Shown here piece by piece: positions 14,658-28,095 of a stretch of 64,000 nucleotides of DNA. Each line of letters starts with the position of its first letter. The first letter of the stretch is position 1. The notes beneath the pieces were generated by a model. The model was not told the DNA's origin and did not search any database. It saw nothing but the letters and a program-made list of their open reading frames with translations. Source of the DNA: Hyphomicrobiales bacterium. GTDB taxonomy: Bacteria; Pseudomonadota; Alphaproteobacteria; Rhizobiales; Rhizobiaceae. The position numbers and the translations under genes are program-made. The stretch is from the NCBI GenBank assembly GCA_900469965.1, contig UBZP01000014.1:139154-203153 (forward strand). Reading direction: 5' to 3'.

Positions 14658-15263
14658 ATGCCAAGACATATCGCCACCGCCTCGCTGGCGCTGGTTCTCA
14701 CCGCGGCGTCCTTCGTCCGGCCCCTCGGCGCGCAGGAGACGCCGGACCCGTCGCCGGAGCTGCGCGACGCCTATGCGACGCTGCTCGGCCTCGATCTCGA
14801 CGGCGAGCAGCCCGTCCGCGACGGCCGCACCGACATCTATCGCTCGAACCTGGACAATCCCGCGGCGCCGCGCCTCGTGACCCGGCTGGAGGTGAGCGGT
14901 AACGAATGCCGCGTGCGCACCACCTCGGCCCTCCAGTCGCCGGGCGAATGGGCGGTGCTTTCGTTGACGATGATGGATTTGAAGCGCATCCAGAGCGCCG
15001 TCGCCTATGGATCGGTCGACGACCTGATCGCCGGCAGGAACCCGTTGCGCCCCGGCGACGCCGCCGCCCGCCAGCTCGTGCTGAAGGGCGACCACCTCCA
15101 GTGCACGAGCCGGATTTCCCTCGCCGACGAAGCGGAAACGCCGGTCAGCAGCTGTCACGACCGGCTTGATATCTCGATGATGGACGAGGCCCAGGTGGCG
15201 AGGGTCCAGAAGGCCGTCGCGCTGTTGACGGAGAGGTGCGATATCGACGCGCTGCGGCCGTAG
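14658..15263 (+). CDS. Exported hypothetical protein
   Basis: The 201-residue product starts with a Sec-type signal peptide (basic PRH, hydrophobic core, probable cleavage after LGA near residue 25). The mature protein is periplasmic, with four visible cysteines that could form disulfides. No family was recognised. It diverges from alr across 169 bases, which contain two CAATTCTG direct repeats (14571-14578 and 14618-14625). It converges with the NsrR gene 19 bases away. It may mark one edge of the block inserted between alr and dnaB. Confidence 0.65.
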   Translation: MPRHIATASLALVLTAASFVRPLGAQETPDPSPELRDAYATLLGLDLDGEQPVRDGRTDIYRSNLDNPAAPRLVTRLEVSGNECRVRTTSALQSPGEWAVLSLTMMDLKRIQSAVAYGSVDDLIAGRNPLRPGDAAARQLVLKGDHLQCTSRISLADEAETPVSSCHDRLDISMMDEAQVARVQKAVALLTERCDIDALRP

Positions 15264-15282: not shown

Positions 15283-15750
15283 TTAGGAGAGTGACGCCTG
15301 GGGACGCCGGTCGGGCGTGATCCCGAGCATCTGGCGCAGCGGCACCGATGGGCGCAGCAGGTCGGCAAGCGTATAGCCGTCCAGGACGTCGAGAAAGGCC
15401 GCCGCCGCGGACGAGAGGGCGCGCTTCAGCACGCAGGCCGGCTGGATCACGCACACGATCTGCGCGCCGGGCTCCAGACAGGGGACGATGGCGAAGTCGG
15501 GCTCGCAGGCGCGGACGATGTCGCCGATGCTGATCTCGCTCGCCTCGCGGGCAAGCCGCATCCCGCCCTGCCGCCCGCGCACCGTCTCGATGAAGCCCTT
15601 CTGCCCCAGTTCATGGGTGATCTTCATCAGATGGGCGCGCGAGATGTCATAGGCCTCGGAAATCTCCGATATCGTCGCCAGCCTGTGGGTGTTCAGGCCG
15701 AGATACATCATCATCCGCAGGGCGTAGTCTGTGTAGGCCGTCAATCTCAT
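15283..15750 (-). CDS. nsrR: Rrf2 family regulator, NsrR type
   Basis: The 155-residue protein is an Rrf2 winged-helix regulator. The DNA-binding part (about residues 25-65) includes ATISEISEAYDISRAHLMKI and the wing GRQGGMRLA. Three cysteines, Cys91, Cys100 and Cys106 (in CVIQPAC), match the cluster-ligand region of NsrR, which loses repression when nitric oxide attacks its iron-sulfur cluster. The stretch AFLDVLDGYTLADLL is also NsrR-like rather than IscR-like. It diverges from a globin operon, and NsrR-like sites occur upstream of several nearby operons. I am fairly sure of the subfamily; the ligand is inferred. Confidence 0.85.
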   Translation of the reverse strand: MRLTAYTDYALRMMMYLGLNTHRLATISEISEAYDISRAHLMKITHELGQKGFIETVRGRQGGMRLAREASEISIGDIVRACEPDFAIVPCLEPGAQIVCVIQPACVLKRALSSAAAAFLDVLDGYTLADLLRPSVPLRQMLGITPDRRPQASLS

Positions 15751-15909
15751 CGGTATGCCCCGTCTGAAAGCGGATGGGTGGACGATAGCGGCGCCGGTAT
15801 CGAAGGCACGCACACCAGAGGCCTGCCACGGCCCCGACATGCGGCGTGACGTCGCTCCCTCCGGTTTCCGCCGATCCGGTCGACGCCCTGTCTTGCCGGG
15901 CTCGGTTTT

Positions 15910-15932
15910 AAGATATATGTGTAATCCATCAT
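15910..15932. promoter_or_regulatory. NsrR-like site A between nsrR and the globin genes
   Basis: The 23-bp stretch begins AAGATATAT and ends CCATCAT. It matches about 16 of 22 defined positions of the enterobacterial NsrR palindrome (AAGATGCATTT, one base, then its complement) as I remember it. It directly abuts the FNR-type box at 15933, so an NO-sensing repressor and an oxygen-sensing activator could share this promoter. Confidence 0.5.
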
Positions 15933-15946
15933 TTGATTGCGATCAA
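15933..15946. promoter_or_regulatory. FNR/FixK/NnrR-type box
   Basis: TTGAT-TGCG-ATCAA is an exact match to the CRP/FNR-family anaerobox TTGAT-N4-ATCAA. It lies 182 bases before nsrR (minus strand) and 204 bases before the first globin gene. Proteins that could bind it are FnrN/FnrL, FixK or NnrR; none is encoded in the window. Confidence 0.75.
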
Positions 15947-16150
15947 CGTTCGACAACTATTCTTCCCGTCCATGGCTCCGGCCACGTGTTTGCGGGCTGG
16001 CTGGATCATGGAAGTGCCATTCATAGCAACGCCGATCAAGCGCAAGGCTCCGGACCGGTGCAGGGCAGGGGAGCGGCTCGGCGCGGCTGCCTGCGATTTC
16101 GGGCTTCCGCGTCCGCTGCGGCGACGGCTCCTCCACGGGACGTGACCGCC

Positions 16151-16594
16151 ATGCCCTGCCTTCCGCACGATCCGTCCATCTATCTCGACGAAAGCACCGT
16201 CTCGGAGCTGGTCATCGACTTCTCGATGCGGCTTCGTCGCAATGCGGCGCTGCGCGCGGTCCTGAACAGGCTTGTCGGCAACCGCTGGCTGGAGTTCGAG
16301 CAGGGCTTCGGTCGGGTCTGCGAAAGCATTCTTCTCCAGCAGGAAATGGAGGAGGACCTGATCGATGTTTTCTTCGCGCATTTCGATGCGCTCTCTGCCG
16401 ATGATCTCGCCGAGGCCGGCGGCGTGTTTCTCGACGCCTGCCTGGCGAGCCTGCCGCTGCATGCGGCGGCGTCGGTCAACGAGCTGTTCGAAAAGGCTGC
16501 AGAGGTCCTGTTCGCCGCCCTGGCCGAGAACCGCACCGCAGAGGCCGCCCATCGCGCACGGACGATCCTGGCGGCCGGTCACGTCTTTCGATGA
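16151..16594 (+). CDS. Divergent truncated-haemoglobin-like protein
   Basis: The 147-residue protein aligns by eye with the globin half of the next gene. Shared positions include LDE-TV (12-17), R27, R29-R30, the GN/D-x-W motif (Gly43, Trp46) and an LFEKA helix near the C-terminus. The distal Tyr of group III truncated haemoglobins is replaced by Ser25, and the following aromatic is Leu38. His77 could correspond to the proximal haem ligand. It may be a haem protein with an altered pocket, a haem-free paralogue or a partner subunit. The ATG at 16151 has only a weak ribosome-binding site; GTG at 16142 is an alternative. Its stop codon overlaps an ATG at 16591. Confidence 0.65.
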   Translation: MPCLPHDPSIYLDESTVSELVIDFSMRLRRNAALRAVLNRLVGNRWLEFEQGFGRVCESILLQQEMEEDLIDVFFAHFDALSADDLAEAGGVFLDACLASLPLHAAASVNELFEKAAEVLFAALAENRTAEAAHRARTILAAGHVFR

Positions 16595-16623
16595 AATCCT
16601 ACCCGACACCGAAAGGAACTCCC

Positions 16624-17367
16624 ATGGCGTCGAAACCCTACAGGACGACGATGATCTTCAACGAGGAGACACTGCCCGCAGCGCTGCGCCGCACGCACAG
16701 TACGAAGAGCGGCGTCTGGGGCGTTCTGCGGGTGATCGCCGGAAGCTTGCGCTATGTGGTCGAGGATGGCAGCGGCGCGCCGGTTCTACTGACGTCGGGC
16801 GATACCGTCGTCATCCTGCCGCAGCAGCCGCATCACGTCGAAGTCACGGGCAGCATGCAGATGCTGGTGGAATTCTACGATCACCACCCCGTCGTTCGCC
16901 CGGGACACGAGCCGGCCGAGGAGGCCGACCGCACGGAACCATCCGGAACCCGGGCGGCCTATCTGAAGGAACGGCAACTCGACGAGGCCACCGTCGTCAG
17001 GGTCGTCGACACGTTCTACGGCCGCATCCGTCGCGACGCGCTTCTTGGCGAGATCTTCGACCGGATGATCGGCGACCACTGGGACCGGCATCTGCAGACG
17101 ATGTACGATTTCTGGTCGTCGGTGATGCTGATGTCGGGCCGCTACAAGGGAACCCCGATGCAGAAGCACGTCTCGATGACGCAACTGACGGAGGCGCACT
17201 TCGGCCGCTGGCTGGAACTCTTCGAACTGACCGTCACGGAACTGTGCGTCGAGACCGATGCCCGCCTTTTCATGGAGAAGGCGCAGATGATTGCCCGCAG
17301 CTTCCAATATGGCATCCAGGTCGCGAGGGGCGAATTGCCGCCCCGCATCTCTGCCCGCGCCGTGTGA
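16624..17367 (+). CDS. DUF1971-group III truncated haemoglobin fusion
   Basis: The 247-residue protein has two domains. Residues 1 to about 92 are a DUF1971 cupin-like domain (PYRTTMIF, THSTKSGVWGVLRV, QQPHHVEV, VEFYDHHPV). Residues about 118-235 are a group III truncated haemoglobin with distal Tyr132 (DTFYGRIR), FWSSVMLMSGRYKG and proximal His182 (MQKHVSM). Truncated haemoglobins bind O2 and NO, and group III members are associated with NO or low-oxygen metabolism. The DUF1971 role is not known. The ATG at 16624 follows AAAGGA; an earlier ATG at 16591 overlaps the preceding gene. The context (NsrR, FNR box) supports a role in NO defence. Confidence 0.88.
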   Translation: MASKPYRTTMIFNEETLPAALRRTHSTKSGVWGVLRVIAGSLRYVVEDGSGAPVLLTSGDTVVILPQQPHHVEVTGSMQMLVEFYDHHPVVRPGHEPAEEADRTEPSGTRAAYLKERQLDEATVVRVVDTFYGRIRRDALLGEIFDRMIGDHWDRHLQTMYDFWSSVMLMSGRYKGTPMQKHVSMTQLTEAHFGRWLELFELTVTELCVETDARLFMEKAQMIARSFQYGIQVARGELPPRISARAV

Positions 17368-17388
17368 TCGCACCGGCCGCACGGTTGC

Positions 17389-17413
17389 GCCGGCTCCACG
17401 AAACGGAGCCGGC
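17389..17413. terminator. Strong hairpin between converging globin and cco operons
   Basis: GCCGGCTCC and GGAGCCGGC form a perfect 9-bp stem around a 7-base loop, 22 bases past the globin stop codon and 55 bases beyond the ccoS stop codon. No T-tract follows on either strand. It probably separates the two converging operons. Confidence 0.5.
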
Positions 17414-17467
17414 AGGACGATCCCGCCCTGCGAGCCTCGGACCTCCGCAGGACATCTATTTGAAGGG

Positions 17468-17650
17468 TCAGGGTCGATCGGCCGGCGGTCGTGGCCGTCC
17501 GTCCGGATGGTCGCGGTCGTCGTAGAGGACGCGTTCGGCCGCGCCGTCAAGGTCCTCGTACTGGCCGTCCGAGAGGTTCCAGATGAATGCGGCGAGTGCC
17601 GCGGCGCTGAGCAGCACCGCGAGCGGCACGAGGAACATCGCGTCAGCCAT
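17468..17650 (-). CDS. ccoS: cbb3-type cytochrome oxidase assembly protein CcoS
   Basis: This 60-residue protein has one N-terminal membrane helix (about residues 5-25, FLVPLAVLLSAAALAAFIW) followed by the CcoS hallmark NLSDGQYEDLDGAAERVLYD. CcoS is needed for cofactor insertion into the cbb3 oxidase, probably together with the copper ATPase CcoI. It overlaps the end of ccoI by eight bases and is the last gene of the cco operon. Confidence 0.93.
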   Translation of the reverse strand: MADAMFLVPLAVLLSAAALAAFIWNLSDGQYEDLDGAAERVLYDDRDHPDGRPRPPADRP

Positions 17651-19871
17651 GCGGCGTGCCCCTCCCGGTTCTACCGCCGCTGAGCCGCAGCGCATTGGCA
17701 ACGACGATCAGCGAGGAGGACGACATCGCGACGGAGGCGAGAAGCGGGGTCAGCAAGCCGAAGATCGCGATCGGCACGGCGAGCAGGTTGTAGGCGATCG
17801 ACAGCAGGAAGTTCTGGCGGACGAGCGCGGCACTCGTGCGCGCGATCCGGTGGGCGTCGGCGATCGCCATCAGGCTCTCGTGCAGGAAGATCAGGTCGGC
17901 GGCCGTGCGGCCGATATCGGAGGCGGAGGCCGGTGCGAAGGACACGTGCGCGGCTGCGAGCGCCGCCGCGTCGTTCAGCCCGTCGCCGACCATCAGCACC
18001 CGCCGGCCTTCGCGCCTCAGCGTCTCGAGCCGCTGCACCTTTCCGGCCGGCGTGGCTTCGGCGGTAGAGGGGATGCCCAGCCTTCCGGCGACCTCGGCGA
18101 CCGCGTCCTGCCGGTCGCCCGACAGCATCTCCACCCGCAGCCCGCGCGCCTTGAGTTCGGCAATGCAGGCTCCGGCGCCGCCGCGCAGGCGGTCCTCGAA
18201 ACGGAACGTGCGGACAAGGCGGCCGTCGCGGCCGAGCACGACGCTGACGCCATCCGGCACGGTATCGACCGGCGCTGCCCAGTCCGGACGGCCGAGCCGG
18301 TAGACCGCCCCTTCGACCTGCGCCTCGACGCCATGGCCGGCCACTTCGCGGATCTGCCCGACGGGGACTGCGGCCGCATCGGGGCAGGCGGCCGCGATGG
18401 CGCGCGAATAGGGGTGGGTGGAGTGGCGGGCGATCCCGGCCGCAAGCGCCAGCAGTTTTCCGTCTGTCTCGCCGCTCTCGTCCTTCTGGGGCAGCAGTTC
18501 CGGTTCCCCGCGCGTCAGCGTTCCGGTCTTGTCGAACACCACGGTATCGATCTCCGCCAGGCGTTCGAGGGCGCTGCCGTCCTTGATCAGGATGCCGCCG
18601 CGGAACAGCCGGCCGGCGGCGACGACCTGGACCATCGGCACTGCGAGGCCGAGCGCGCAGGGGCAGGTGACGATCAGAACGGCGATCGCCGTGGTCGCCG
18701 CATGATGCAGCCCGGTCCCCGCGGCCTGCCAGCCGAGAAAGGTCAGGAACGCCGCGACGTGGACGACCGGCGCATAGAGCGCGGATGCGCGGTCGGCGAT
18801 CCGCCTGTAGCCGCTGCGGCCGGACTCCGCCGTCTCCATCAGGCGGGTCATCTCGGCCAGGAAGGATTCGTTCGATCCGCGCAGCGCCACGATCTCGAGC
18901 GGGGCGGAGAGGTTCAGCACGCCGGCCTGGAGTTCCCGTCCGACATCGGCGGCCACGGGAATGCTCTCGCCGCTGGTCAGCGAGCAGTCGATCTCCGACC
19001 GCCCCGCCACGATCCGCGCATCGACCGGGACGCGCTGGCCGGCGGCAAGCGCCAGCCGCATGCCGGGCCGCACCTCGGCGAGCGGAACATAGCGGTGCCA
19101 CCCGTCCGGCTCGATGAGATAGGCGCCCCTTGCCGCCAGCCGGGCGATACCCGCCACCGCGCTGCGCGCCCGTGCCCGCATCATGTGATCGAGCGTGCGC
19201 CCGATCAGCAGGAAGAACAGCAGCGAGACGGCGGCATCGAAATAGGCATGCGCGCCGTACATCGCGGTCTCGTAGACGCTGAGGACGAAGGTGAGCGTCA
19301 CGCCGATGGAGATCGGCACGTCCATGTTGGTGCGCCCGTGTTTCAGGGCCGACCAGGCGGAGCGATAGAACACCTGGCCGGAATAGAGGACGGTCGGCAG
19401 GGCGATCAGGCCGGATATCAGGTGGAAGAGCTGCCGGGTCCAGGGGTCGGCGCCGGACCAGACCGCGAAGGACAGAAGCATGATGTTGCTGGAGGCGAAG
19501 GCTGCGACCGCAAGCGCGCGCAGCATGGCCCGCAGGTCGCCGTCGTGCGCCTTGTCGGGGATCTCCGCGACGTGCGCCGGAAAGCCGATCTTCTCCAGGG
19601 TCTCGGTGAGGGCGGGGGGCGTGCCGCGCCGGCTCCATTCCACGACGACCCGCTTCGTCGACAGGTTGGCCCGCGCCTTCGTGACGCCCGGCAGATTTGC
19701 GAGCGACGTCTCGACCTTGCGCATGCATCCGCCGCAATGCATCGAGGGGACGACGAGTTCGGTCCTGAAACTCGATGCCGACTGCCTGCTGAGCAGCAGG
19801 AGTTCGCCGCCGTCCTGCGCTTCGGGGGCGCGATCCGCGCCGGTGGGCGGGGAAAGAGATGCCGTTGCCAT
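17643..19871 (-). CDS. ccoI: Cu+-translocating P-type ATPase CcoI/FixI
   Basis: The 742-residue P1B ATPase delivers copper for assembly of the cbb3 oxidase binuclear centre. It has an N-terminal heavy-metal domain with MHCGGC (Cys46, Cys49), eight predicted membrane segments, the transport motif CPC (403-405), the phosphorylation motif DKTGT (447-451, Asp447) and GDGLND near the C-terminal hinge. The position next to ccoS and the absence of a second metal-binding domain support CcoI rather than a CopA efflux pump. It lies 21 bases after the DUF2189 gene. Confidence 0.95.
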   Translation of the reverse strand: MATASLSPPTGADRAPEAQDGGELLLLSRQSASSFRTELVVPSMHCGGCMRKVETSLANLPGVTKARANLSTKRVVVEWSRRGTPPALTETLEKIGFPAHVAEIPDKAHDGDLRAMLRALAVAAFASSNIMLLSFAVWSGADPWTRQLFHLISGLIALPTVLYSGQVFYRSAWSALKHGRTNMDVPISIGVTLTFVLSVYETAMYGAHAYFDAAVSLLFFLLIGRTLDHMMRARARSAVAGIARLAARGAYLIEPDGWHRYVPLAEVRPGMRLALAAGQRVPVDARIVAGRSEIDCSLTSGESIPVAADVGRELQAGVLNLSAPLEIVALRGSNESFLAEMTRLMETAESGRSGYRRIADRASALYAPVVHVAAFLTFLGWQAAGTGLHHAATTAIAVLIVTCPCALGLAVPMVQVVAAGRLFRGGILIKDGSALERLAEIDTVVFDKTGTLTRGEPELLPQKDESGETDGKLLALAAGIARHSTHPYSRAIAAACPDAAAVPVGQIREVAGHGVEAQVEGAVYRLGRPDWAAPVDTVPDGVSVVLGRDGRLVRTFRFEDRLRGGAGACIAELKARGLRVEMLSGDRQDAVAEVAGRLGIPSTAEATPAGKVQRLETLRREGRRVLMVGDGLNDAAALAAAHVSFAPASASDIGRTAADLIFLHESLMAIADAHRIARTSAALVRQNFLLSIAYNLLAVPIAIFGLLTPLLASVAMSSSSLIVVANALRLSGGRTGRGTPHG

Positions 19872-19892
19872 GTCCGCCTCCTTGCGCCGCCG

Positions 19893-20687
19893 TCAGGCCG
19901 CGGGCCTGAGCGCGCGATAGCAGTGCCAGGTGCCGTGGCCGAGGATCGGGAAGATGACGATCAGGCCGACGAAGCCGGTCGCGACGCTCAGCACGAACAG
20001 GCCCATGACGATGCCGGCCCAGACCAGCATCACATCGAGGTTGTGCCAGACCAGCGCCATGCTGGTGCCCATCGCCGTCAGCGCGTCCGAGCGCTCCCGC
20101 AGAAGCATCGGCAGCGAAATGGCGCCGATCGCGAAGGAAAAGGCGGCGAACAGCCCGCCGACAGCGCTTCCCACCACGAGCATCGCCCAGCCGACGGGGG
20201 TGGTGAAGAGCATGGCTGCGATATGGTCGAGCCCCGGAAACGGCAGCAGTCCGAAGAACAGCGCGTACACGATCACCGCGGCCCGCAGCCACACCATCAT
20301 CAGCAGGCAAAGAAGCGCGCCGGTGAAGACGACCTGATAGCCGGAGGCGGGGCGCACGAAGATCATGTCGGCGAAGGTGACCGGCAACCCGGCCGAAAGG
20401 CGGCGGCTCTTCTCGTAGAGCCCCATGGCGAAGATCGGACCGACGACCATGAAGCCGGCGAGCACCGGCAGCAGGATGTAGTCGGCGCCGTAGGCGAACA
20501 GGACCCAGACGCAGCCGGCCAAGACGAGGCAGACCAGAAGGCCGTAGGCGAGGCCCTGGTGCAGACCGATCGCGAAGTCCCGGGCGCCCGCGCGCAGCCA
20601 GCCGAAAGCGGCGGTCGCCGGCAGGTTCCGCCGCCAGATCTTCTCCCGCGGCTCGGCGGGCACGACATCGGGAAGGGCTTCGTTCAT
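19893..20687 (-). CDS. DUF2189 integral membrane protein
   Basis: The 264-residue protein has about six hydrophobic helices after a 50-residue polar N-terminus. Motifs such as GPIFAMGLYEKSRRL, GWAMLVVGSAVGGLFAAFSF and FPILGHGTWHCYRAL identify the DUF2189 family, whose function is unknown. It lies five bases after the small membrane protein gene and 21 bases before ccoI. Its place inside the operon, where ccoG and ccoH usually sit, suggests a role in assembly or stability of the oxidase. Confidence 0.85.
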   Translation of the reverse strand: MNEALPDVVPAEPREKIWRRNLPATAAFGWLRAGARDFAIGLHQGLAYGLLVCLVLAGCVWVLFAYGADYILLPVLAGFMVVGPIFAMGLYEKSRRLSAGLPVTFADMIFVRPASGYQVVFTGALLCLLMMVWLRAAVIVYALFFGLLPFPGLDHIAAMLFTTPVGWAMLVVGSAVGGLFAAFSFAIGAISLPMLLRERSDALTAMGTSMALVWHNLDVMLVWAGIVMGLFVLSVATGFVGLIVIFPILGHGTWHCYRALRPAA

Positions 20688-20692
20688 GGCCG

Positions 20693-20923
20693 TCACTCGC
20701 TGGCGGTTTTCGGTGGGGTGGATGGGCGGCAGCCGGATTGCGCCGCGGCGTAGGAGGCCCGTTCCCCGGCCTCGCCGAGCCGCCGGTGGGCGATGCATTC
20801 CGGTTGCGACGTCTCCGCGACATAGACGAGGTGGACATTGGCCGCGACGACCAGGGCGGCGCCGAGGACGATGGCCAACAGCAGGCCGGCGCGACCGGCA
20901 AGCCGGTTCCGCCGGATACTCAT
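20693..20923 (-). CDS. Small membrane protein in the cco operon
   Basis: The 76-residue product has a basic start (MSIRRNR), one membrane helix (about residues 12-32) and a short periplasmic tail with cysteines in SQPECIAH and SGC. Its start overlaps the ccoP stop codon as ATGA, and DUF2189 follows after five bases, so it is clearly part of the operon. It occupies the place where ccoG and ccoH usually lie, but it is half the length of CcoH and I cannot show homology. Function unknown. Confidence 0.75.
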   Translation of the reverse strand: MSIRRNRLAGRAGLLLAIVLGAALVVAANVHLVYVAETSQPECIAHRRLGEAGERASYAAAQSGCRPSTPPKTASE

Positions 20924-21795
20924 GGCCGGGCCTTCCGCAGATCGTCGAGGTAGGCGGCGAGGATCTTGATGTTCAGGCTCCCGAGCCGGCCTTCCCAGGT
21001 GGGCATGTGCCCCTGGCGCCCGGCCCAGACGGAGCTGTAGACCGTCTGCAAGCCGCCGCCATAGAGCCATTTGTCGTCCGCGAGGTCCGGCGCGCCGACA
21101 TCCGCATTACCGCGCGCGTCATCGCCGTGGCAGGCGGCGCAGTTCGCCGCGAAGATCTCGGCGCCTTCCGGATGGTCGGCCGCGGCGCCATCCGCGCCGC
21201 TCCTGCCGAGATCGCGGACATAGGCGGCGACGGCCTCGATCTCCGCGCGCTGCAGGATGCCGTCGCGGCCGAAGGCGGGCATCTGCGCGCTCCGCGATTC
21301 CGGATGGGCGGAGTTGATGCCGACGCGGATGGTCTCCTCGATCGCCTCCGGCGTGTCGCCCCAGTTCAGCGCCCCGGTCGAGAGACCCGGAAAGCCCGCA
21401 TTGCCGCTCGCGTCGACGCCATGGCACACGGCGCAATTCTGGCCGAAGAGCGCATGGCCGGCTTCGCGCACGTTGCCCATCACCGTCTCGTCCGCGGCGA
21501 TCGTGGCGAAGTCCGCCTGCGCAACGACGTCGCGCCAGTGCGCCTGGTCTTGCGCAGCGCGCGCGAGGTCGCGGCGGACGACGTTGCGCTCGTCATAGCC
21601 CAGAATACCCTTGGTGTAGGTCGTCCCGAGGGGGAGGGCCGGCATGAACACCCAGTAGACGAGGCCGAAGAGCGTCGTCGTGATCAGGAAGAAATAGACG
21701 ATGCGGGGAACCGGCGTGTTGAGTTCCTTGATGCCGTTCCATTCGTGCCCGGTCGTCCGGTGTCCGGTCAGCGGATCGCGTTCCTCTATTGCCAC
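20920..21795 (-). CDS. ccoP: cbb3 oxidase dihaem subunit CcoP/FixP
   Basis: The 291-residue protein is the membrane-anchored dihaem cytochrome c of the cbb3 oxidase. One helix spans about residues 31-51, and two haem c motifs, CAVCH (121-125) and CAACH (219-223), each have downstream Met ligand candidates (QMPAFG, GHMPTW). It passes electrons from the bc1 complex towards CcoO and CcoN. The start is GTG at 21795 with AAGGAGG upstream. It overlaps the end of ccoQ by ten bases. Confidence 0.96.
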   Translation of the reverse strand: MAIEERDPLTGHRTTGHEWNGIKELNTPVPRIVYFFLITTTLFGLVYWVFMPALPLGTTYTKGILGYDERNVVRRDLARAAQDQAHWRDVVAQADFATIAADETVMGNVREAGHALFGQNCAVCHGVDASGNAGFPGLSTGALNWGDTPEAIEETIRVGINSAHPESRSAQMPAFGRDGILQRAEIEAVAAYVRDLGRSGADGAAADHPEGAEIFAANCAACHGDDARGNADVGAPDLADDKWLYGGGLQTVYSSVWAGRQGHMPTWEGRLGSLNIKILAAYLDDLRKARP

Positions 21796-21962
21796 GGCCG
21801 GTCCTCCTTCTTGAGGATCGAAGCGGAGGCGTCGTCGAATTCCTTCTGCTTGGACGGCCAGAACGCGTAGCAGAGCACGACGACGGACAGGACCACCAGG
21901 TAGATGAGGCCGAAGGTCTTGGCGAACCAGACCAGTGTGTCATGGGCGACGATCGTCATCAT
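21786..21962 (-). CDS. ccoQ: cbb3 oxidase subunit CcoQ/FixQ
   Basis: This 58-residue single-helix protein (helix about residues 12-32, ending YAFWPSKQKEFDDAS) is the small CcoQ subunit, which stabilises the interaction of CcoP with the core. The start codon overlaps the ccoO stop codon (ATGA), with tandem ATGs at 21962 and 21959, and its end overlaps ccoP. Confidence 0.92.
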   Translation of the reverse strand: MMTIVAHDTLVWFAKTFGLIYLVVLSVVVLCYAFWPSKQKEFDDASASILKKEDRPWQ

Positions 21963-22693
21963 TGCGTTTCCACCGCTGCGGTGTCCTGGCTTGCGGCATC
22001 CGTGAGCTTGCCGAGGATCTGGAGATAGGCGACGAGGGCGTCCATCTCGGTGACGCGCTGCGGATCGCCGTCGAAGAGGCGCACGGTCGTGGCCTCGCCG
22101 TAGCGGGAGGTCACACCGGCAGCCGCCGCGCTGTCGGGGTTCGCCTGGCCGTAGACGTCGGCTCCGGCATTGGCGATCATCTCGTCGGTATAGGGCACGC
22201 CGACCGCCCGTTGTGCGGCGAGCTGCCCGGACAGGTCGTCCGTCCGGAGCGCATTGTCCATCAGCCAGCCATAGGCCGGCATGATCGACACCGGCACGAC
22301 GTCGCGCGGGTTGATCAGGTGGCGCACATGCCATTCGTCGGAATACTTGCCGCCGAGGCGGGCGATGTCCGGGCCGGTGCGCTTGGAGCCCCAGAGCATC
22401 GGATGGTCGTATTTCGATTCGACTGCCAGGCTGTAGGGGCCGTAGCGGTCGACCTCGTCGCGCAGCGTGCGGATCATCTGCGAGTGACAGGCATAGCAGC
22501 CCTCGCGCATGTAGATGTTGCGGCCGGCGAGCTCGAGCGGCGTGTAGACGCGCATGTCGGGTGCGGCTTCCACCGTCTGGTCGATGGTGAAGAGCGGCGC
22601 GATCTCGACGATGCCGCCGATGCTGGCCGCAGCGATGATCGCGAGCGTCAGGCCGATGGCGCGCCGTTCGAGCTTGTAGTGGAGCTTGAACAT
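21959..22693 (-). CDS. ccoO: cbb3 oxidase monohaem subunit CcoO/FixO
   Basis: The 244-residue membrane-anchored cytochrome c has one N-terminal helix (about residues 12-33) and a haem c motif CYACH (66-70) followed by SQMIRTL. A Met ligand is likely in VSIMPAYGWL. The EGCYACHSQMIR block is diagnostic for CcoO. It begins four bases after the ccoN stop codon. Confidence 0.96.
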   Translation of the reverse strand: MFKLHYKLERRAIGLTLAIIAAASIGGIVEIAPLFTIDQTVEAAPDMRVYTPLELAGRNIYMREGCYACHSQMIRTLRDEVDRYGPYSLAVESKYDHPMLWGSKRTGPDIARLGGKYSDEWHVRHLINPRDVVPVSIMPAYGWLMDNALRTDDLSGQLAAQRAVGVPYTDEMIANAGADVYGQANPDSAAAAGVTSRYGEATTVRLFDGDPQRVTEMDALVAYLQILGKLTDAASQDTAAVETQ

Positions 22694-22696
22694 GAA

Positions 22697-24358
22697 CTAC
22701 TCCCCGGCCTGCAGTGCTGCGGCAGACGGCCTGCCGTAAGCCGGACCCGATCCCGCGCGTTCGGCTTCGGCTTCTCCTGGCGCCAGGCGGATCGTGAGAA
22801 AGAGATTGAGGCAGCCGGCAAGCGCGCCGAGCAGGAAGAGAAGACCGCCGATCGCCCGGGCGATGTAGTAGGGCTTCATGGCCACCAGCGAGTCGATGAA
22901 GGTATAGGCGAGGTTGCCGTTCTCCGTGTAGGTCCGCCACATCAGGCCCTGGATGATCCCGGAGTTCCACATCGCGAAGACGTAGACGGCGGTGCCGGCG
23001 AGTGCGAGCCAGAAGTGCAGCTCCACCAGCGCCGGCGAATACATGCGCTCGCGCTTCCACAGCCAGGGGATCGAGGCGTAGAGCGCGCCGAAGGTAATCA
23101 TCGCCACCCAGCCGAGCGCGCCGGCATGCACGTGCCCGACGGTCCAGTCGGTATAGTGCGACAGCGAGTTGACCGAGCGGATCGCCATGAACGAGCCTTC
23201 GAAGGTGGTCAGGCCGTAGAACACCGCGGCCACCATCATGAAGCGCAGGGTCGCGTCGTCGCGAACCTTGTGCCAGGCGCCGTTCAGCGTCAGCAGTGCG
23301 TTGGCTGCCGATCCCCAGGACGGCACCAGGAGCACCAGAGAGAAGGTCATGCCCAGCGTCTGCACCCATTGCGGCAGCGCGGTATAGTGCAGGTGGTGCG
23401 AGCCCACCCACATGTACATGAAGGTGATGCCCCAGAAGCTGATGATCGACATCCGGTAGGAGAAGATCGGCCGGCCCGCGCGCACGGGGAGATAGTAGTA
23501 CATCATGCCGAGGAAGCCGGAGGTCAGGAAGAAGGCGACCGCGTTGTGCCCGTACCACCATTCGGTCAGCGCATCCTGCACGCCGGCGAACAGCGAATGG
23601 CTCTTGGCGCCGAAGAGCGAGACGGGGACGGCGAGGTTGTTGACGATGTGCAGCATCGCGACGACGACGATGAAGGCCATGTAGTACCAGTTCGCCACAT
23701 AGATGTGCGGCTCCTGGCGGCGCGACAGCGTGCGCAGATAGAGGACGAAGTAGACGATCCAGACGACGACCAGCCACAGGTCGGCATACCATTCCGGCTC
23801 CGCATATTCCTTCGACTGGGTGATGCCGAGCATGTAGCCGCTGACCGCCAGCAGACAGAACAGGTTGTAGCCGATCAGCACGAACCACGGGCTGAGCTGG
23901 TCGGGCAGGCGCGCCCGGCAGGTGCGCTGCATGACGTAGAAGGAGGTGGCGATCAGGCCGTTGCCGCCGAAGCCGAAGATGACGCCGGTGGTATGCACCG
24001 GGCGGAGGCGCCCGAAGCTCGACCAGGCGCCGGAAAAGGTCAGGTTGGGCTCGACCAGGAGCCACGCCACCCAGTCGCCGACGAACATCGCGAACGCGCC
24101 CCAGGCGAAGGTCAGCACGACGCCGACCTTGCTCGGGTCGTCGTAGTAGCTGTCGAGCCTGTCGCGGGACGGCTCCGGATCGAAGAGATGGCGCATCACC
24201 GGCACGGCGACGGCCATCGAGAACAGCATGATGAGGAAGCCGTGGGCGGAGATTGGATCGCCCCGACCGGCGATCGCGATGACAAGCCCGATCACCGTCA
24301 TGGCGAGCAGGATGATCAGGCCCCCCTCGCGCTCGCCCTTTGTCAGTTTCGACAGCAT
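22697..24358 (-). CDS. ccoN: cbb3 oxidase catalytic subunit I CcoN/FixN
   Basis: The 553-residue protein is the catalytic core that reduces O2 with high affinity. About twelve membrane helices carry the histidine ligands: His122 (VHTTGVIFG) for haem b, His271 (YGHNAVAFF) and His321-His322 (GSHHLHY) for CuB, and His409/His411 (GHVHAGALGW) for the haems. A long C-terminal tail ends the protein. It is the first gene of ccoNOQP-small protein-DUF2189-ccoI-ccoS. The 274-base upstream spacer has no exact FixK/FNR box but has an NsrR-like site. Confidence 0.97.
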   Translation of the reverse strand: MLSKLTKGEREGGLIILLAMTVIGLVIAIAGRGDPISAHGFLIMLFSMAVAVPVMRHLFDPEPSRDRLDSYYDDPSKVGVVLTFAWGAFAMFVGDWVAWLLVEPNLTFSGAWSSFGRLRPVHTTGVIFGFGGNGLIATSFYVMQRTCRARLPDQLSPWFVLIGYNLFCLLAVSGYMLGITQSKEYAEPEWYADLWLVVVWIVYFVLYLRTLSRRQEPHIYVANWYYMAFIVVVAMLHIVNNLAVPVSLFGAKSHSLFAGVQDALTEWWYGHNAVAFFLTSGFLGMMYYYLPVRAGRPIFSYRMSIISFWGITFMYMWVGSHHLHYTALPQWVQTLGMTFSLVLLVPSWGSAANALLTLNGAWHKVRDDATLRFMMVAAVFYGLTTFEGSFMAIRSVNSLSHYTDWTVGHVHAGALGWVAMITFGALYASIPWLWKRERMYSPALVELHFWLALAGTAVYVFAMWNSGIIQGLMWRTYTENGNLAYTFIDSLVAMKPYYIARAIGGLLFLLGALAGCLNLFLTIRLAPGEAEAERAGSGPAYGRPSAAALQAGE

Positions 24359-24469
24359 TGCCCCACTTTCCGATCTGATCGGGCGCCGTGCGCGCCCCCG
24401 CCGACACTGGCCGCCGCCCCGATCCGTCGCCAGTCATACGACGGTATAGGTTGCCAGCCATTTCGCAAT

Positions 24470-24492
24470 AACATCGATTCTATATATATCTT
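24470..24492 (-). promoter_or_regulatory. NsrR-like site B upstream of ccoN
   Basis: Read on the minus strand the 23-bp site begins AAGATATAT and ends AATCGATGTT, 112 bases before the ccoN start. It agrees with about 15 of 22 defined positions of the enterobacterial NsrR palindrome and shares its left half exactly with sites A and C. No FNR/FixK consensus was found in the 24359-24632 spacer. That spacer also holds a 6-bp hairpin (24598-24615) past the end of the hydrolase gene. Confidence 0.5.
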
Positions 24493-24632
24493 TAAAACCC
24501 TTGCGTGCGATCGTCAAAGCGGCAATGCGCCACACCCGGGAGGTGTCGAACGGCGCCGAGGAGCCGAAGAGCGACGGCGCGCAGCGATCCCGGGGCAGGG
24601 CACCTGACCGTGCCCCGCCGCCCTGTCTGCGC

Positions 24633-25442
24633 CTAGGCGGCGCTGAGCTTCTTCAGCGTCTCGTCGGTGGTCCAGAGACCGTTTGCGATGAAGCGGAAAT
24701 TGATCAGCGCCGCCAGGTAACCGTCGCCCTCGGGGAATTTTGCCGCCGCGATCGCGTCCCGCACCACGGCGACTTCGAAGCCCTGTTCCAGAAGATGCCG
24801 CAGATGGGATTCGACGCACAGGTTGGCGGCCATTCCGGCCAGGATGATCTGGTTCACGCCCTGCTTTCCGAGCTGCAGCACGAGGTCGTTCGCCTGCGGC
24901 CCGTAGAGCTTGTGCGGGGAGCACACGATCGTCTTCCCGTCCTCGATGTATTCCTTGAACTCGGGCATCCATTCGGCGCCGGATCCCGCGAAGCCGTCGA
25001 GCGTCAGCGGGCCCTTCCGATCGAACATGCCCAGCCGATGCTGCAGGATCTCGAGCGGACCCTCGACCTTCCAGTGGTGGTCGTGCGGGTAGTAGTAGTG
25101 GGGCGATATCACCACCGGAATCCCGGCCGACTTGGCGGCCTTGAACAGGCGCACGAGGTTGGGGACGGTGTTCAGCTCGGTGACGCTTTCGCCGACGACG
25201 GGCCAGGCGGGGCTCGCCGGGCTCATGAAATCGACCTGCGGGTCGATGACCACCAGCGCCGTCCGCGCGAGATTGAGCTGCATGTTCGTCGGGGGAAGGG
25301 CCGGATTTGCCGGATCGGCATAGGCATCGAGGCCGGCGGCCTCCGCACTGCTCGTGCTCGCGCCAGCAAGGGCGCCCAGCGCGCCGGCACCGGCGAGTGT
25401 GGCCAGAAATGTTCGTCTGCCGGAATCGCAGTCACTGCACAT
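24633..25442 (-). CDS. Tat-exported isochorismatase-fold cysteine hydrolase
   Basis: The 269-residue protein begins with a twin-arginine signal (SGRRTFLATL, Arg9-Arg10, then an Ala/Gly-rich hydrophobic stretch to about residue 36). The mature part is an isochorismatase-like hydrolase with a complete Asp67-Lys178-Cys209 triad (VIDPQVDF, SPHKLYGP, ANLCVES). The superfamily cleaves amides, carbamates or isochorismate; most members are cytoplasmic, so periplasmic export is notable. Substrate unknown. It stands alone between the cco operon and the PAS-reductase operon, with its own NsrR-like upstream site. Confidence 0.88.
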   Translation of the reverse strand: MCSDCDSGRRTFLATLAGAGALGALAGASTSSAEAAGLDAYADPANPALPPTNMQLNLARTALVVIDPQVDFMSPASPAWPVVGESVTELNTVPNLVRLFKAAKSAGIPVVISPHYYYPHDHHWKVEGPLEILQHRLGMFDRKGPLTLDGFAGSGAEWMPEFKEYIEDGKTIVCSPHKLYGPQANDLVLQLGKQGVNQIILAGMAANLCVESHLRHLLEQGFEVAVVRDAIAAAKFPEGDGYLAALINFRFIANGLWTTDETLKKLSAA

Positions 25443-25524
25443 GGATATACTCCTATTCTTACGTGTTGACTTTGAAAAAAGGCCTGAAATGCAGACGAGG
25501 ATGCTCGTTCGGCGATATCGGGAA

Positions 25525-25547
25525 AAGATATATCGAGGTATACATGG
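25525..25547 (+). promoter_or_regulatory. NsrR-like site C upstream of the exported hydrolase
   Basis: The left half AAGATATAT (25525-25533) is identical to sites A and B; the right half GTATACATGG is a weaker match with one extra base of spacing. It lies 83-105 bases before the hydrolase start codon at 25442. This is the least certain of the four sites. Confidence 0.35.
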
Positions 25548-25586
25548 ATCCCCGGCCGGTTCGCCGGGTTAATATTTCGATGTGGA

Positions 25587-25614
25587 GGATTGTCTCCATG
25601 GCTGGAGACAATCC
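25587..25614. terminator. 12-bp perfect hairpin after the diflavin reductase gene
   Basis: GGATTGTCTCCA and TGGAGACAATCC form a perfect 12-bp stem with a 4-base loop, 55 bases beyond the reductase stop codon at 25669. No long T-tract follows, but the stem is strong and separates this operon from the hydrolase promoter. Confidence 0.55.
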
Positions 25615-25668
25615 CGAGCGAGGGTTTCGTGCTGGTGTTCAACCTGCCGGGCCGATACATCTGCCCAT

Positions 25669-27219
25669 TCAGTACAGTTCCTTGTGCAGTCGCTCGTTCA
25701 GCACCAGTTCGTGCACGAAGTGCTCGGCCCGGTCCTCGGGCAGCCCGCCGGCGCGGGCGGCGATATTGCGGATGACGTCGTCGATCGATCGGTCGAGGTT
25801 CGCCTTGTTGCCGCAGACGTAGACGTGAGCACCCTGGTCGAGCAGTTGCCAGATGTGGTCGGCGTTCTCCATCAGGGCATGCTGGACATAGTAGGGCTCG
25901 GCACTGTCGCGCGAGAATGCGGTGATCAGGCTGCCGACGACGTCCGAACGCTCCCAGCTCCGTATCCTGTCCTCGTAGAGGAAGTCGGACGAGCTGCGGC
26001 GGTCGCCGAAGACGAGGCATGTGTGCGCCGAGCGCGCGCTGCGTCCGGCCTGTTCGAGCATCCCCATGAAGGGGCCGATGCCGGTACCGGTGCCGACCAG
26101 GATGAGCGGATGATCCGAGGCGGACGAGAGATGGAACCTCGGATTGGCCCGGACGAAGATCGGCACCTTGCCGGTCGTCCTGTCCAGGTATCCCGTCGCC
26201 GCGCCCGCACGCCTGCGGCCCTTAAGCTCGTAGCTCACGTTGCGGATGCACAGGTCGATATAGTCCGGATTGCCGTGCGAGGCGATCGAGTAGGCGCGCG
26301 GCTGGATCGCCGGCAGGTGGGAGGCCACCTCGGCGGCGGCCACTGCCCCGGGCGTTGCGAAATCCTGCAGGATATCAAGCAGATCACGGCCATAGAGGTA
26401 GTCCTCCAGCGCGATCTTGTTGGCGATCTTCAGGAGCTCCTTGAGGGCGTTGTTCTCCGTAAGCCGCGCCAGTTGCCGCAGGAACGACTTGCCGATGCTC
26501 CTCAGCTCCTTCGCTGAAAACAGCTCGAAGGCGCCGGGCTCGCCAAACCATTCCGCCAGTTGCGACAGCAGCTCGGGATCGTTCTCGGGCACGAGATAGA
26601 GATTGTCTCCGGCCCGATAGTTGATGCCGCTGCCTTCGATGCCGAAGCGATAGTGCCAGGCGAAGGGGGCGGTGCCGTTGAGCGTCTGCCTTTCGATGAT
26701 GGGCGCGTCGAAGGTGTTGTTTTCTCCGTATGATTTCACCTGCAGTGCAAGCGACAGGGCCGCGGCCTCATCGCCCTTCAGCGCCGACAGCACCGCGGCC
26801 CGCCAGGTCTCGAAGAAGCCGTCGAAATCCGTGTCCGCATCGACGCGGTTGGCAAAGGGGACGGCGCCGGCGTCGCGCAGCGCCGCGTCCAGCCCTTTCG
26901 TGAAGCCGCAGAAATGGGGGTAGGCGACGTCGCCGATGCCGAAGATGGCATAGCGGAGGCGCTGGGGCTGGGGCAGGTCCTTCAGCCGCTCCAGGAAGCC
27001 CTCCGCATTTGCGGGGGGCTCGCCGTCGCCGAAGGAGCTGGAAATGATCACCAGCCGATGCCGATGGTCGAAGGCGGCCAGGTCGAACTCCCCCAGCGGC
27101 GTGATCGAAGGCTCAAAGGGGGCGAATGCCGGGTCGAGACCGAGCCGTTCGGCCAGTCTCCGCGCGTTGCCGGTCTCCGATCCGAAGGCGATCGCGAGCC
27201 GATTTCCGTCTGATGTCAT
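25669..27219 (-). CDS. Diflavin reductase (CysJ/P450-reductase-like)
   Basis: The 516-residue protein has three domains: a flavodoxin FMN domain (about 1-150, FGSETGNA at 12-19 and SSSFGDGEPPANA), an FAD-binding domain (about 185-345, with RAYS at 308-311), and an NADPH-binding domain (GTGTGIGPF at 376-384, YVCGNKANLDRSI). It ends in an aromatic residue (KELY), as CysJ does. It would pass electrons from NADPH to a one-electron acceptor. No sulfite-reductase haemoprotein or P450 gene is adjacent. It follows a PAS protein by 14 bases in a probable two-gene operon. The nearby truncated haemoglobin is a possible acceptor; this is inference. Confidence 0.88.
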   Translation of the reverse strand: MTSDGNRLAIAFGSETGNARRLAERLGLDPAFAPFEPSITPLGEFDLAAFDHRHRLVIISSSFGDGEPPANAEGFLERLKDLPQPQRLRYAIFGIGDVAYPHFCGFTKGLDAALRDAGAVPFANRVDADTDFDGFFETWRAAVLSALKGDEAAALSLALQVKSYGENNTFDAPIIERQTLNGTAPFAWHYRFGIEGSGINYRAGDNLYLVPENDPELLSQLAEWFGEPGAFELFSAKELRSIGKSFLRQLARLTENNALKELLKIANKIALEDYLYGRDLLDILQDFATPGAVAAAEVASHLPAIQPRAYSIASHGNPDYIDLCIRNVSYELKGRRRAGAATGYLDRTTGKVPIFVRANPRFHLSSASDHPLILVGTGTGIGPFMGMLEQAGRSARSAHTCLVFGDRRSSSDFLYEDRIRSWERSDVVGSLITAFSRDSAEPYYVQHALMENADHIWQLLDQGAHVYVCGNKANLDRSIDDVIRNIAARAGGLPEDRAEHFVHELVLNERLHKELY

Positions 27220-27233
27220 GATCGAACGCCACT

Positions 27234-27656
27234 TCAGTTGCCGTAGTATTGATCGTAGTATTCCTTGGACGACTCCAGTTGTTCGAAGTCGGCCATGAGA
27301 TCGTTGATCACACGCCGGATACTGATGTACTCGACGATCTTGCCGTCGCGATCGCGCACCGGCTGGATGGTCGTGTCGACGACATAGAGGGCGCCGCCCT
27401 TGCCGACGTTCGGAAAGGCGCCGCTCCAGGTCTTTCCTTCCTTGATGGTCTGCCACAGGTCCTTGTAGACGCTCTTCGGAACGTCCGGGTGGCGAACGAC
27501 GTTGTGCGGCTTGCCGATGAGCTCTTCCCGGCTGTAGCCGGTCAGTTCGCAAAAGAGGTCGTTGACGTAGGTGATGTTGCCCTGCAGGTCCGTGGTCGAG
27601 ATCACCATGACCTTGTCGAGCGCTTCGAGAACTTTCGCGTTGAGTCCGTCTTCCAT
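27234..27656 (-). CDS. Stand-alone Aer-type PAS domain protein
   Basis: The 140-residue protein is essentially one PAS domain. The motifs TDLQGNITYVNDLFCELTGY, REELIGKPHNVVRHPDVP and LWQTIKEGKTWSGA match the FAD-binding PAS of the aerotaxis receptor Aer. No transmembrane, HAMP, kinase or methyl-accepting region follows; the protein ends in a Tyr-rich tail (EYYDQYYGN). It may be a redox or oxygen sensor or a small flavoprotein partner of the diflavin reductase encoded 14 bases downstream. Confidence 0.85.
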   Translation of the reverse strand: MEDGLNAKVLEALDKVMVISTTDLQGNITYVNDLFCELTGYSREELIGKPHNVVRHPDVPKSVYKDLWQTIKEGKTWSGAFPNVGKGGALYVVDTTIQPVRDRDGKIVEYISIRRVINDLMADFEQLESSKEYYDQYYGN

Positions 27657-28095
27657 TGTTCTGCACCTTTCCGAACGGCTGGTTGGTCGCGTGTCCTCCT
27701 CCTCGCCAGCGGTTATAGGGGTGGGGTTTAAACATGTAAATGAAATGTATGTTTATTGCGACCGGATGACGCGGCCGACCGGTCCGGGCCCGTCGCTTGC
27801 CAGGCTTTGGGGGGCCATGACCCAAGGCGCAGCCGGCCCTTCCCGCGGGCAGGGGGAAGGCCGGAGAGATTTGTCGTGGAGAGGTGAGACAGAGCAGGGC
27901 GGGCCGTCATCCGGCCCCGCGGGGACGGGGCCGGAAGCCGGGATGATCTGATGTTTCCCGCGGCCGATCCTCACGACCTGCGGGGCAAATGATGCAGGTC
28001 CAGGGTGCAACGCTGCGGCCGCCGTCAAGCGTCGGCGGCCACCGTCGCGGGTCCGCGGCGCAATCCGGCGCCGCAGCGGCCGGAGCTTTGGCCGG
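27657..28095. other. 439-base spacer between the PAS gene and dnaB
   Basis: The spacer holds NsrR-like site D near the PAS gene. The rest is G+C-rich with no convincing gene. An 8-bp hairpin, GGCCGCCG/CGGCGGCC (28017-28040), lies 56 bases past the dnaB stop codon and may help end dnaB transcription, though no T-tract follows. It may mark the right edge of the block inserted between alr and dnaB. No direct repeats or att-like sequence were recognised. Confidence 0.5.
27731..27753 (-). promoter_or_regulatory. NsrR-like site D upstream of the PAS-reductase operon
   Basis: Read on the minus strand, the half sites AACATACATTT and ATTTACATGTT flank one base. About 17 of 22 defined positions agree with the enterobacterial NsrR palindrome, the best match of the four sites. 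The core sits inside a wider inverted repeat AAACAT...ATGTTT (27730-27754). It lies 75-97 bases before the PAS start codon, a normal operator position. Confidence 0.55.

Follow-up and report, generated by a model that had tools for sequence, protein, structure and literature searches.

Regulons governed by NsrR, a nitric oxide (NO)-responsive repressor of the Rrf2 family, were described by Rodionov (2005) in gamma- and beta-proteobacteria; their usual targets are hmp, hcp, dnrN and nnrS, and that paper reports no alphaproteobacterial NsrR except that of one Rhodobacter capsulatus strain and contains no occurrence of cbb3, ccoNOPQ or fixNOPQ (PMC1274295). Here we analyse a stretch of 64,000 nucleotides (hereafter the window) from a Hyphomicrobiales bacterium (assembly GCA_900469965.1, contig UBZP01000014.1, positions 139,154 to 203,153; genome scanned, 5.34 Mb), in which a gene for a predicted NsrR-type protein is found together with two globin or globin-like genes, an operon for a cbb3-type oxidase and a gene pair encoding a PAS protein and a diflavin reductase. 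We consider it very likely that this block is a NO-response regulon, in which NsrR would keep three promoters repressed, those of nsrR/globin, ccoNOQP and PAS-diflavin, and would come off them in response to NO. The regulons of Rodionov (2005) are alike in joining an Rrf2 NO-response repressor to hmp, a globin and other NO-defence targets (PMC1274295). The regulon as such would be of a known kind, and the cbb3 class and the PAS-diflavin pair are its predicted new members.

Some elements of this arrangement have been described elsewhere. In Rhizobium sp. PRF 81 an nsrR-like gene lies beside hmp, that is, a globin NO dioxygenase in a rhizobium, and the available part of the report mentions no link with cbb3, a group III truncated haemoglobin (trHb3) or a diflavin protein (PMC3557214). 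A terminal oxidase under NsrR is known from Vibrio fischeri (aox; PMC1274295), but it is an alternative oxidase, whereas the window harbours a full cbb3 operon with copper-loading genes. In Legionella an operon of glbN and a ferredoxin-reductase gene is under NsrR and has been proposed to oxidise NO (PMC1274295, PMC3820574); the reductase of the window is instead a CysJ-like diflavin protein paired with an Aer-type PAS protein, and its globin belongs to group III. No report of an NsrR-controlled cbb3 operon was found in the accessible text of the open-licence PMC literature. The canonical rhizobial fixNOQP/ccoNOQP operons are under FixK/FNR; they share the ccoN-O-P core with the window operon, which differs from them in its separate ccoN class, in the presence of DUF2189, in its putative NsrR operator and in having no FNR box at ccoN. 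The V. fischeri aox gene and NsrR were reportedly also treated by Dunn in 2010.

In the window, nsrR (15283-15750) is divergent from glb1-glb2, and the cbb3 operon comprises ccoN-O-Q-P, a small open reading frame (ORF), a DUF2189 gene, ccoI and ccoS; an exported isochorismatase gene sits between this operon and the PAS-diflavin genes. An earlier note on this DNA had pointed to four 23-bp stretches, at 15910, 24470, 25525 and 27731 (A, B, C and D in the following), all of which are present at these positions. The exact half that it described as common to three of them is the 9-mer AAGATATAT, which occurs three times on the two strands of the window (15910, 25525 and, as complement, 24484), and its hand count of 15-17 matches out of 22 for A, B and D became 17, 16 and 17 on recounting against AAGATGYATTTNAAATRCATCTT, taken as the enterobacterial NsrR palindrome. 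Because the sites of the window must not be scored against themselves, a weight matrix was built from eight sites of relatives (three from locus L082, one each from L085, L103 and L135, and two from L136) and none from the window. Scanning the 64 kb with this blind matrix ranked D first (27731..27753; 30.4; PAS-diflavin promoter, 74 bp before the PAS start), A second (15910..15932; 27.7; divergent promoter of nsrR and the globin operon) and B third (24470..24492; 27.4; ccoN promoter, 112 bp upstream of the start); the next score was 12.3, and C scored -5. Neither 2 Mb of random sequence with the composition of the window nor 3 million positions at 50% AT contained a score as high as those of A, B and D. 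Four window positions reach at least 15 of 22 matches to the consensus, namely A, B, D and 14970, where random 64-kb sequences with the dinucleotides of the window gave a mean of 0.225 such positions and a maximum of 1 (40 runs). The position at 14970-14992 (16/22, matrix 12.3) lies inside the coding region of an exported protein (14658-15263), so that the remark in the earlier note that the motif was not seen elsewhere in the window holds for non-coding DNA only.

The same three sites stand out in the whole genome. With the degenerate palindrome AASATNNATNNNNNATNNATSTT, whose S was picked after the sites had been seen, no sites other than A (one mismatch), B (no mismatches) and D stay at or below one mismatch; at up to two mismatches 16 sites were found, versus 4 for the reversed control, and the 13 two-mismatch sites have matrix scores of 4.4 to 21.3, each below those of A, B and D. 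When S was replaced by the G and C of the enterobacterial consensus, A and B were still the sole one-mismatch sites and D had three mismatches. Twelve of the 13 two-mismatch sites were inspected by eye (11 by their ORFs, L112-L122, and one at the end of contig C30), the one on contig C33 being scored only; several lie inside reading frames, and no NO gene stood out by eye near these 12. The C30 site, at position 90, scores 21.3. Another place, contig C6 position 479327 (L107 5328), scores 20.4, and the gene that begins 67 bp downstream of it resembles, by eye, one for a solute-binding protein; position 3063 of L157 scores 21.3, about 540 bp beyond the end of an Hmp-reductase-like frame. The loci of four NnrS matches and of two further Hmp-reductase-like matches (L158, L160) contain no site above 8.2, and a sigma-70 scan found no promoter-like site.

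The earlier note had proposed that nsrR controls four operons, including the exported hydrolase, i.e., the isochorismatase. This idea finds some support in the copy of AAGATATAT at 25525, one of the three in the window, which lies 83 bp upstream of the hydrolase gene, and in a different, apparently Tat-exported hydrolase that adjoins a glb1 ortholog and has an NsrR-like site in front of it. However, site C (25525-25547) matches the enterobacterial consensus at only 8 of 22 positions and is not a 23-bp palindrome of the NsrR type; its second half is out of register, apparently by 1 bp outwards. Moreover, 17 orthologs of the isochorismatase were found in 297 genomes of the order (own genome excluded), and none of the 11 examined has an NsrR-type site in the 450 bp upstream (best score 11.5, with some start codons extrapolated). 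On the basis of these matches, the matrix score and the orthologs, site C was rejected as a regulon member, and the hydrolase as NO-linked on the same ground; since no site is found at the 11 orthologs examined, the isochorismatase is left out of the regulon, and a single regulon of all four promoters seems unlikely. The proposal is therefore partly confirmed: three of the four sites look real, being recovered by the window-blind matrix and recurring at related operons (the nsrR-linked cbb3 and the PAS-diflavin promoters), and the regulon reading appears mostly right, while membership of the hydrolase is not supported.

The regulator (nsrR, 15283..15750, minus strand, 155 aa) is an Rrf2 protein by fold and winged-helix DNA-binding domain (PF02082, 132.5 bits), with the recognition helix ISRAHLMKITHEL, and its best sequence match in the PDB is ScNsrR (5n07, E 1.4e-16). 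In the ScNsrR structure three cysteines and Asp8 are the ligands of the cluster (PMC5411485), and the window protein carries Asp8 and three cysteines (Cys91, Cys100 and Cys106). It might be argued that we are dealing with a RirA-like sensor of iron or Fe-S, and that the operons answer to iron or Fe-S status and not to NO. Indeed, the RirA model (141.3 bits, cut-off 193) and the NsrR equivalog model (139.5 bits, cut-off 182) score it equally, both below the NCBIfam cut-offs; since the naming cut-off, which is a database threshold and not biology, was missed, we speak of an NsrR-type protein. Against this possibility, six RirA proteins, including the genome's own copy on contig C34, have Asn8 where the window regulator has Asp8, and in the tree RirA is one starred branch (100/99) that contains the C34 copy, with the window regulator outside it and itself in no starred set. 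Furthermore, among 17 further Rrf2 loci a site scoring at least 20 within 420 bp of nsrR or trHb3 was found in 8 of 11 outside the RirA group and in none of the 6 RirA loci (the Fisher test, p 0.002, counted L046 as positive, giving 9/11), and the genes linked to nsrR include hmp, norB and trHb3. RirA in place of NsrR was rejected on residues, tree and operator scan, and we regard a RirA-like sensor as quite improbable. Because Asp8 and the three cysteines are present and the RirA clade, with its Asn8, excludes the window regulator, we treat the latter as NsrR-type; judged by sequence only, a 23-bp palindromic operator lies at its own promoter and at those of its targets, a length in agreement with the 23-bp site documented for Streptomyces NsrR (PMC9338935). 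The view that this Rrf2 protein is an NsrR-type regulator distinct from RirA is thus supported.

The association of nsrR with this cbb3 operon recurs in other genomes. In 15 of the 28 loci of the ccoN class described below (window included), nsrR lies within the examined region; it directly precedes ccoN in 12, and in 7 of these trHb3 precedes nsrR. With leave-one-locus-out scoring, a site was accepted when its matrix score was at least 18 and it lay within 420 bp upstream of nsrR, trHb3 or ccoN, and the set consisted of the 28 family loci and six named plasmid loci, with 5 canonical ccoN loci as control. Such a site is present in 17/19 nsrR-linked cbb3 loci, 2/15 unlinked ones and 0/5 canonical loci (linked versus unlinked, Fisher p 1.2e-5), and it tells against these counts that the operator classes and the threshold of 18 were partly drawn from loci later tested and that the threshold was set afterwards. 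Among the six loci obtained after the training sites had been chosen, the site is found in 4/4 linked and 0/2 unlinked ones, and it is also present in L039 and L099, which belong to the first set and lie outside the training. The two linked misses are L042, with a site before the first gene of the run and thus outside the rule, and L103, with a site 1.2 kb from ccoN. On a plasmid of Sphingobium amiense, norB-cupin-nsrR-trHb3-DUF1971-hmp (hmpA) adjoins the same cbb3 operon, and in Shinella this operon stands after an Rrf2 gene and before trHb3; the copies of Bosea and of Sinorhizobium meliloti pSymA show neither nsrR nor the site in the examined stretches. In L032, L036 and L046, nsrR and trHb3 lie, by eye, near narG/narH-like and transporter-like genes. 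Next to nsrR or trHb3 there is repeatedly a gene for a small membrane protein (L095 1593-2075, L096, L042 and L034); that of L095 is DUF4149-like, its score of 24.3 narrowly missing the Pfam cut-off of 24.6.

The operators fall into three types, all 23 bp overall, with AAGATRYAT (the window and E. coli), AAGTGGYAT or AATAGGTAT halves. Placed on the NsrR tree together with the RirA label (21 of 34 rows labelled), they require 3 changes, the minimum possible, and the AAGAT type does not form one clade. Of 13 AAGTGG-type proteins, 12 have Leu at recognition-helix residue 42, versus 0 of 14 of the AAGAT type, which include E. coli and L046; L156, with a mixed site and Ile, was left out of the count. 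The counterpart of this residue in enterobacterial NsrR is, by alignment, Val43, and in Salmonella Val43 controls the binding of the operator (PMC10783083). Operator type thus tracks the recognition helix. That the sites are mere AT-rich spacers of a GC-rich genome, a doubt raised by their position in AT-rich intergenic DNA, is extremely improbable, given that the random positions at 50% AT never reach the scores of A, B and D, that the sites recur at related promoters and that operator type follows regulator clade.

The cbb3 genes all lie on the minus strand. ccoN (22697..24358) exceeds the cut-off of TIGR00780 (633 bits, cut-off 583) and, together with CcoO, CcoP and the HHLHY and HVH motifs, identifies the enzyme as a cbb3 oxidase; it is followed by ccoO (21959..22693; PF02433, E 5e-87), ccoQ (21786..21962; from translation, at the position of the annotated third subunit gene in L152) and ccoP (20920..21795; TIGR00782, 266 bits, above cut-off). 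Then come a small membrane ORF of about 76 aa (20693..20923; from translation, with no Pfam match and a hypothetical protein annotated at the same place in L152-L155), the DUF2189 membrane protein (19893..20798; PF09955), a homolog of which follows ccoP in 27/27 other family loci of the class, the copper P-type ATPase gene ccoI (17643..19871; TIGR01511, 508 bits) and ccoS (FixS; 17468..17650; PF03597, from translation). This ccoN belongs to a class, often nsrR-linked, found at 28 places in 27 of 121 family genomes, including the window copy and a second own copy; the window protein is 65-75% identical within its class versus 53-61% to other family ccoN. Comparison of 34 class with 5 canonical sequences gave 48 separating columns, at 44 of which the window CcoN has the class residue; at residue 320, Ser replaces Pro before HHLHY, as in 32 of the 34 class members. 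The second own copy (contig C9 349187-350800, L093) is 72% identical and has no nsrR nearby and no site, and the same is true for the class ccoN of S. meliloti 1021 pSymA (L151 9001-10653; 69%). The canonical ccoN of the genome (L106) has an FNR-like box upstream, and the window ccoN has none.

The third predicted target is the operon of the stand-alone PAS protein (27234..27656, minus strand), of the Aer/MmoS/NifL type (PDB 3ewk, E 1e-33; 8dik, E 8e-30), and the diflavin reductase (25669..27219, minus strand), with flavodoxin, FAD and NAD domains (PF00258, PF00667 and PF00175). PAS domains of the Aer/MmoS/NifL type bind FAD. The diflavin protein scores below the cut-off of the model for the CysJ flavoprotein of sulphite reductase (TIGR01931, 322 bits versus a cut-off of 668), and PADLOC gave no match for either protein. 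Sinorhizobium sp. 6-70 and Rhizobium sp. CC-CFT758 have orthologs of the reductase (75 and 62%, respectively), the next plasmid match being at 32%, and in both relatives the PAS gene precedes it (86 and 88% by tblastn; unannotated in Rhizobium sp. CC-CFT758). An NsrR-type site stands before the PAS gene in 3/3 genomes, at 76 bp (L135), 72 bp (L136) and 74 bp (window), the L135 and L136 sites being part of the matrix training and first found by consensus score. In Rhizobium sp. CC-CFT758 the order is PAS-diflavin-trHb3-fdxA-nsrR, with another site before nsrR. A search at E 1e-110 did not detect the pair in any of the remaining 393 genomes of the family sample and 384 of the class sample (the samples may overlap), and as two relatives are known, its conservation rests on three genomes.

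As for the genes that the earlier note called globins, the designation stands for glb2 (16591..17367, plus strand), which combines DUF1971 (PF09313) with a group III truncated haemoglobin (PF01152; PDB 2ig3, E 1.3e-17) and appears to have the trHb3 fold with the proximal haem ligand, His81, invariant in 9/9 rows. It is less secure for glb1 (16151..16594, plus strand), a divergent group III globin-like protein that has a pairwise profile match to trHb3 (97.4%) and no Pfam match, and for which the next match in the genome is glb2 (E 0.007). No His occupies the proximal column in the 3/3 members of its family (window 16151-16594, L132 10005-10454 and L133 10243-10671), so that the proximal His of group III is lacking, and the AlphaFold model of glb1, made with one other alignment row, has a mean pLDDT of 54.4, which is insufficient for searching by fold. 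Upstream of the L132 member there is an NsrR-like site, and this member adjoins, by eye, an apparently Tat-exported hydrolase gene with another such site. The FNR/FixK-type box TTGATTGCGATCAA (15933..15946), a perfect one, directly adjoins operator A and is the sole TTGA-N6-TCAA match in the 64 kb; since it touches the operator, low oxygen as well as NO probably acts on the globin promoter. No flavohaemoglobin above the family cut-off was found in the genome (best 121.7 of 432 bits, reductase part only), and it may thus be that a globin and a separate reductase replace Hmp.

Starting from the sites, their conservation, the class of the regulator and its recurring neighbourhood, the following scheme can be proposed. 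The iron-sulphur NsrR-type repressor would bind the palindromes A, B and D and thereby shut nsrR itself along with the globin operon, the ccoNOQP-DUF2189-ccoIS operon and the operon of the PAS-diflavin pair. With its cluster destroyed or nitrosylated by NO, NsrR would leave the DNA. The products would then be a truncated haemoglobin turning NO into nitrate, a diflavin reductase fed by NAD(P)H that probably re-reduces the globin, and an alternative cbb3 oxidase that might sustain respiration, or remove NO, while the usual oxidases are poisoned, with the FNR-type box suggesting a low-oxygen input at the globin promoter.

Several points weigh against this scheme. The support comes from sequence, and, besides the equal scores of the two NCBIfam models, the best matches to the window NsrR in six genus-mates are at 42-45%. 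At least 4 other places in the genome score 18.9 to 21.3 with no known NO link, and L037, L046 and L049 have an nsrR-like gene and no site within 420 bp (the L046 site is 2.6 kb away, and L049 has Asn8). Of the 28 class loci, 13 have no nsrR in the examined region, the C9 copy of the window genome among them, and 11 of these 13 have no site, which implies that NO control of the cbb3 class is not universal; an FNR-like box lies upstream in 3 of the 27 other class loci (L094, L098 and L102). Finally, in Sphingopyxis granuli NO represses the proximal genes of a ccoNOQPGHIS operon (PMC6472365), so that one may not generally take cbb3 operons to be induced by NO; that operon has ccoGH and the window operon does not.

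How bacteria keep respiring under NO, which blocks haem-copper oxidases, is a live question, for which the recurring NsrR-linked alphaproteobacterial cbb3 class is a named candidate. The match between helix residue and operator may serve as a code from which NsrR regulons can be predicted in the alphaproteobacteria, a class in which almost none were found by Rodionov (2005), and the diflavin reductase, predicted to be co-regulated with a truncated haemoglobin and adjoining it in one genome, is a directly testable case. We can also speculate, as a possible though doubtful joint reading, that the often NsrR-linked ccoN class is a dedicated NO-stress oxidase, either NO-tolerant or NO-reducing, which substitutions beside the copper ligands would mark (Ser320 in place of Pro before HHLHY), and that the PAS-diflavin pair and trHb3 form a three-protein NO dioxygenase in place of Hmp. 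If this were true, the PAS-diflavin pair and trHb3 would reveal a natural electron donor of a group III truncated haemoglobin.

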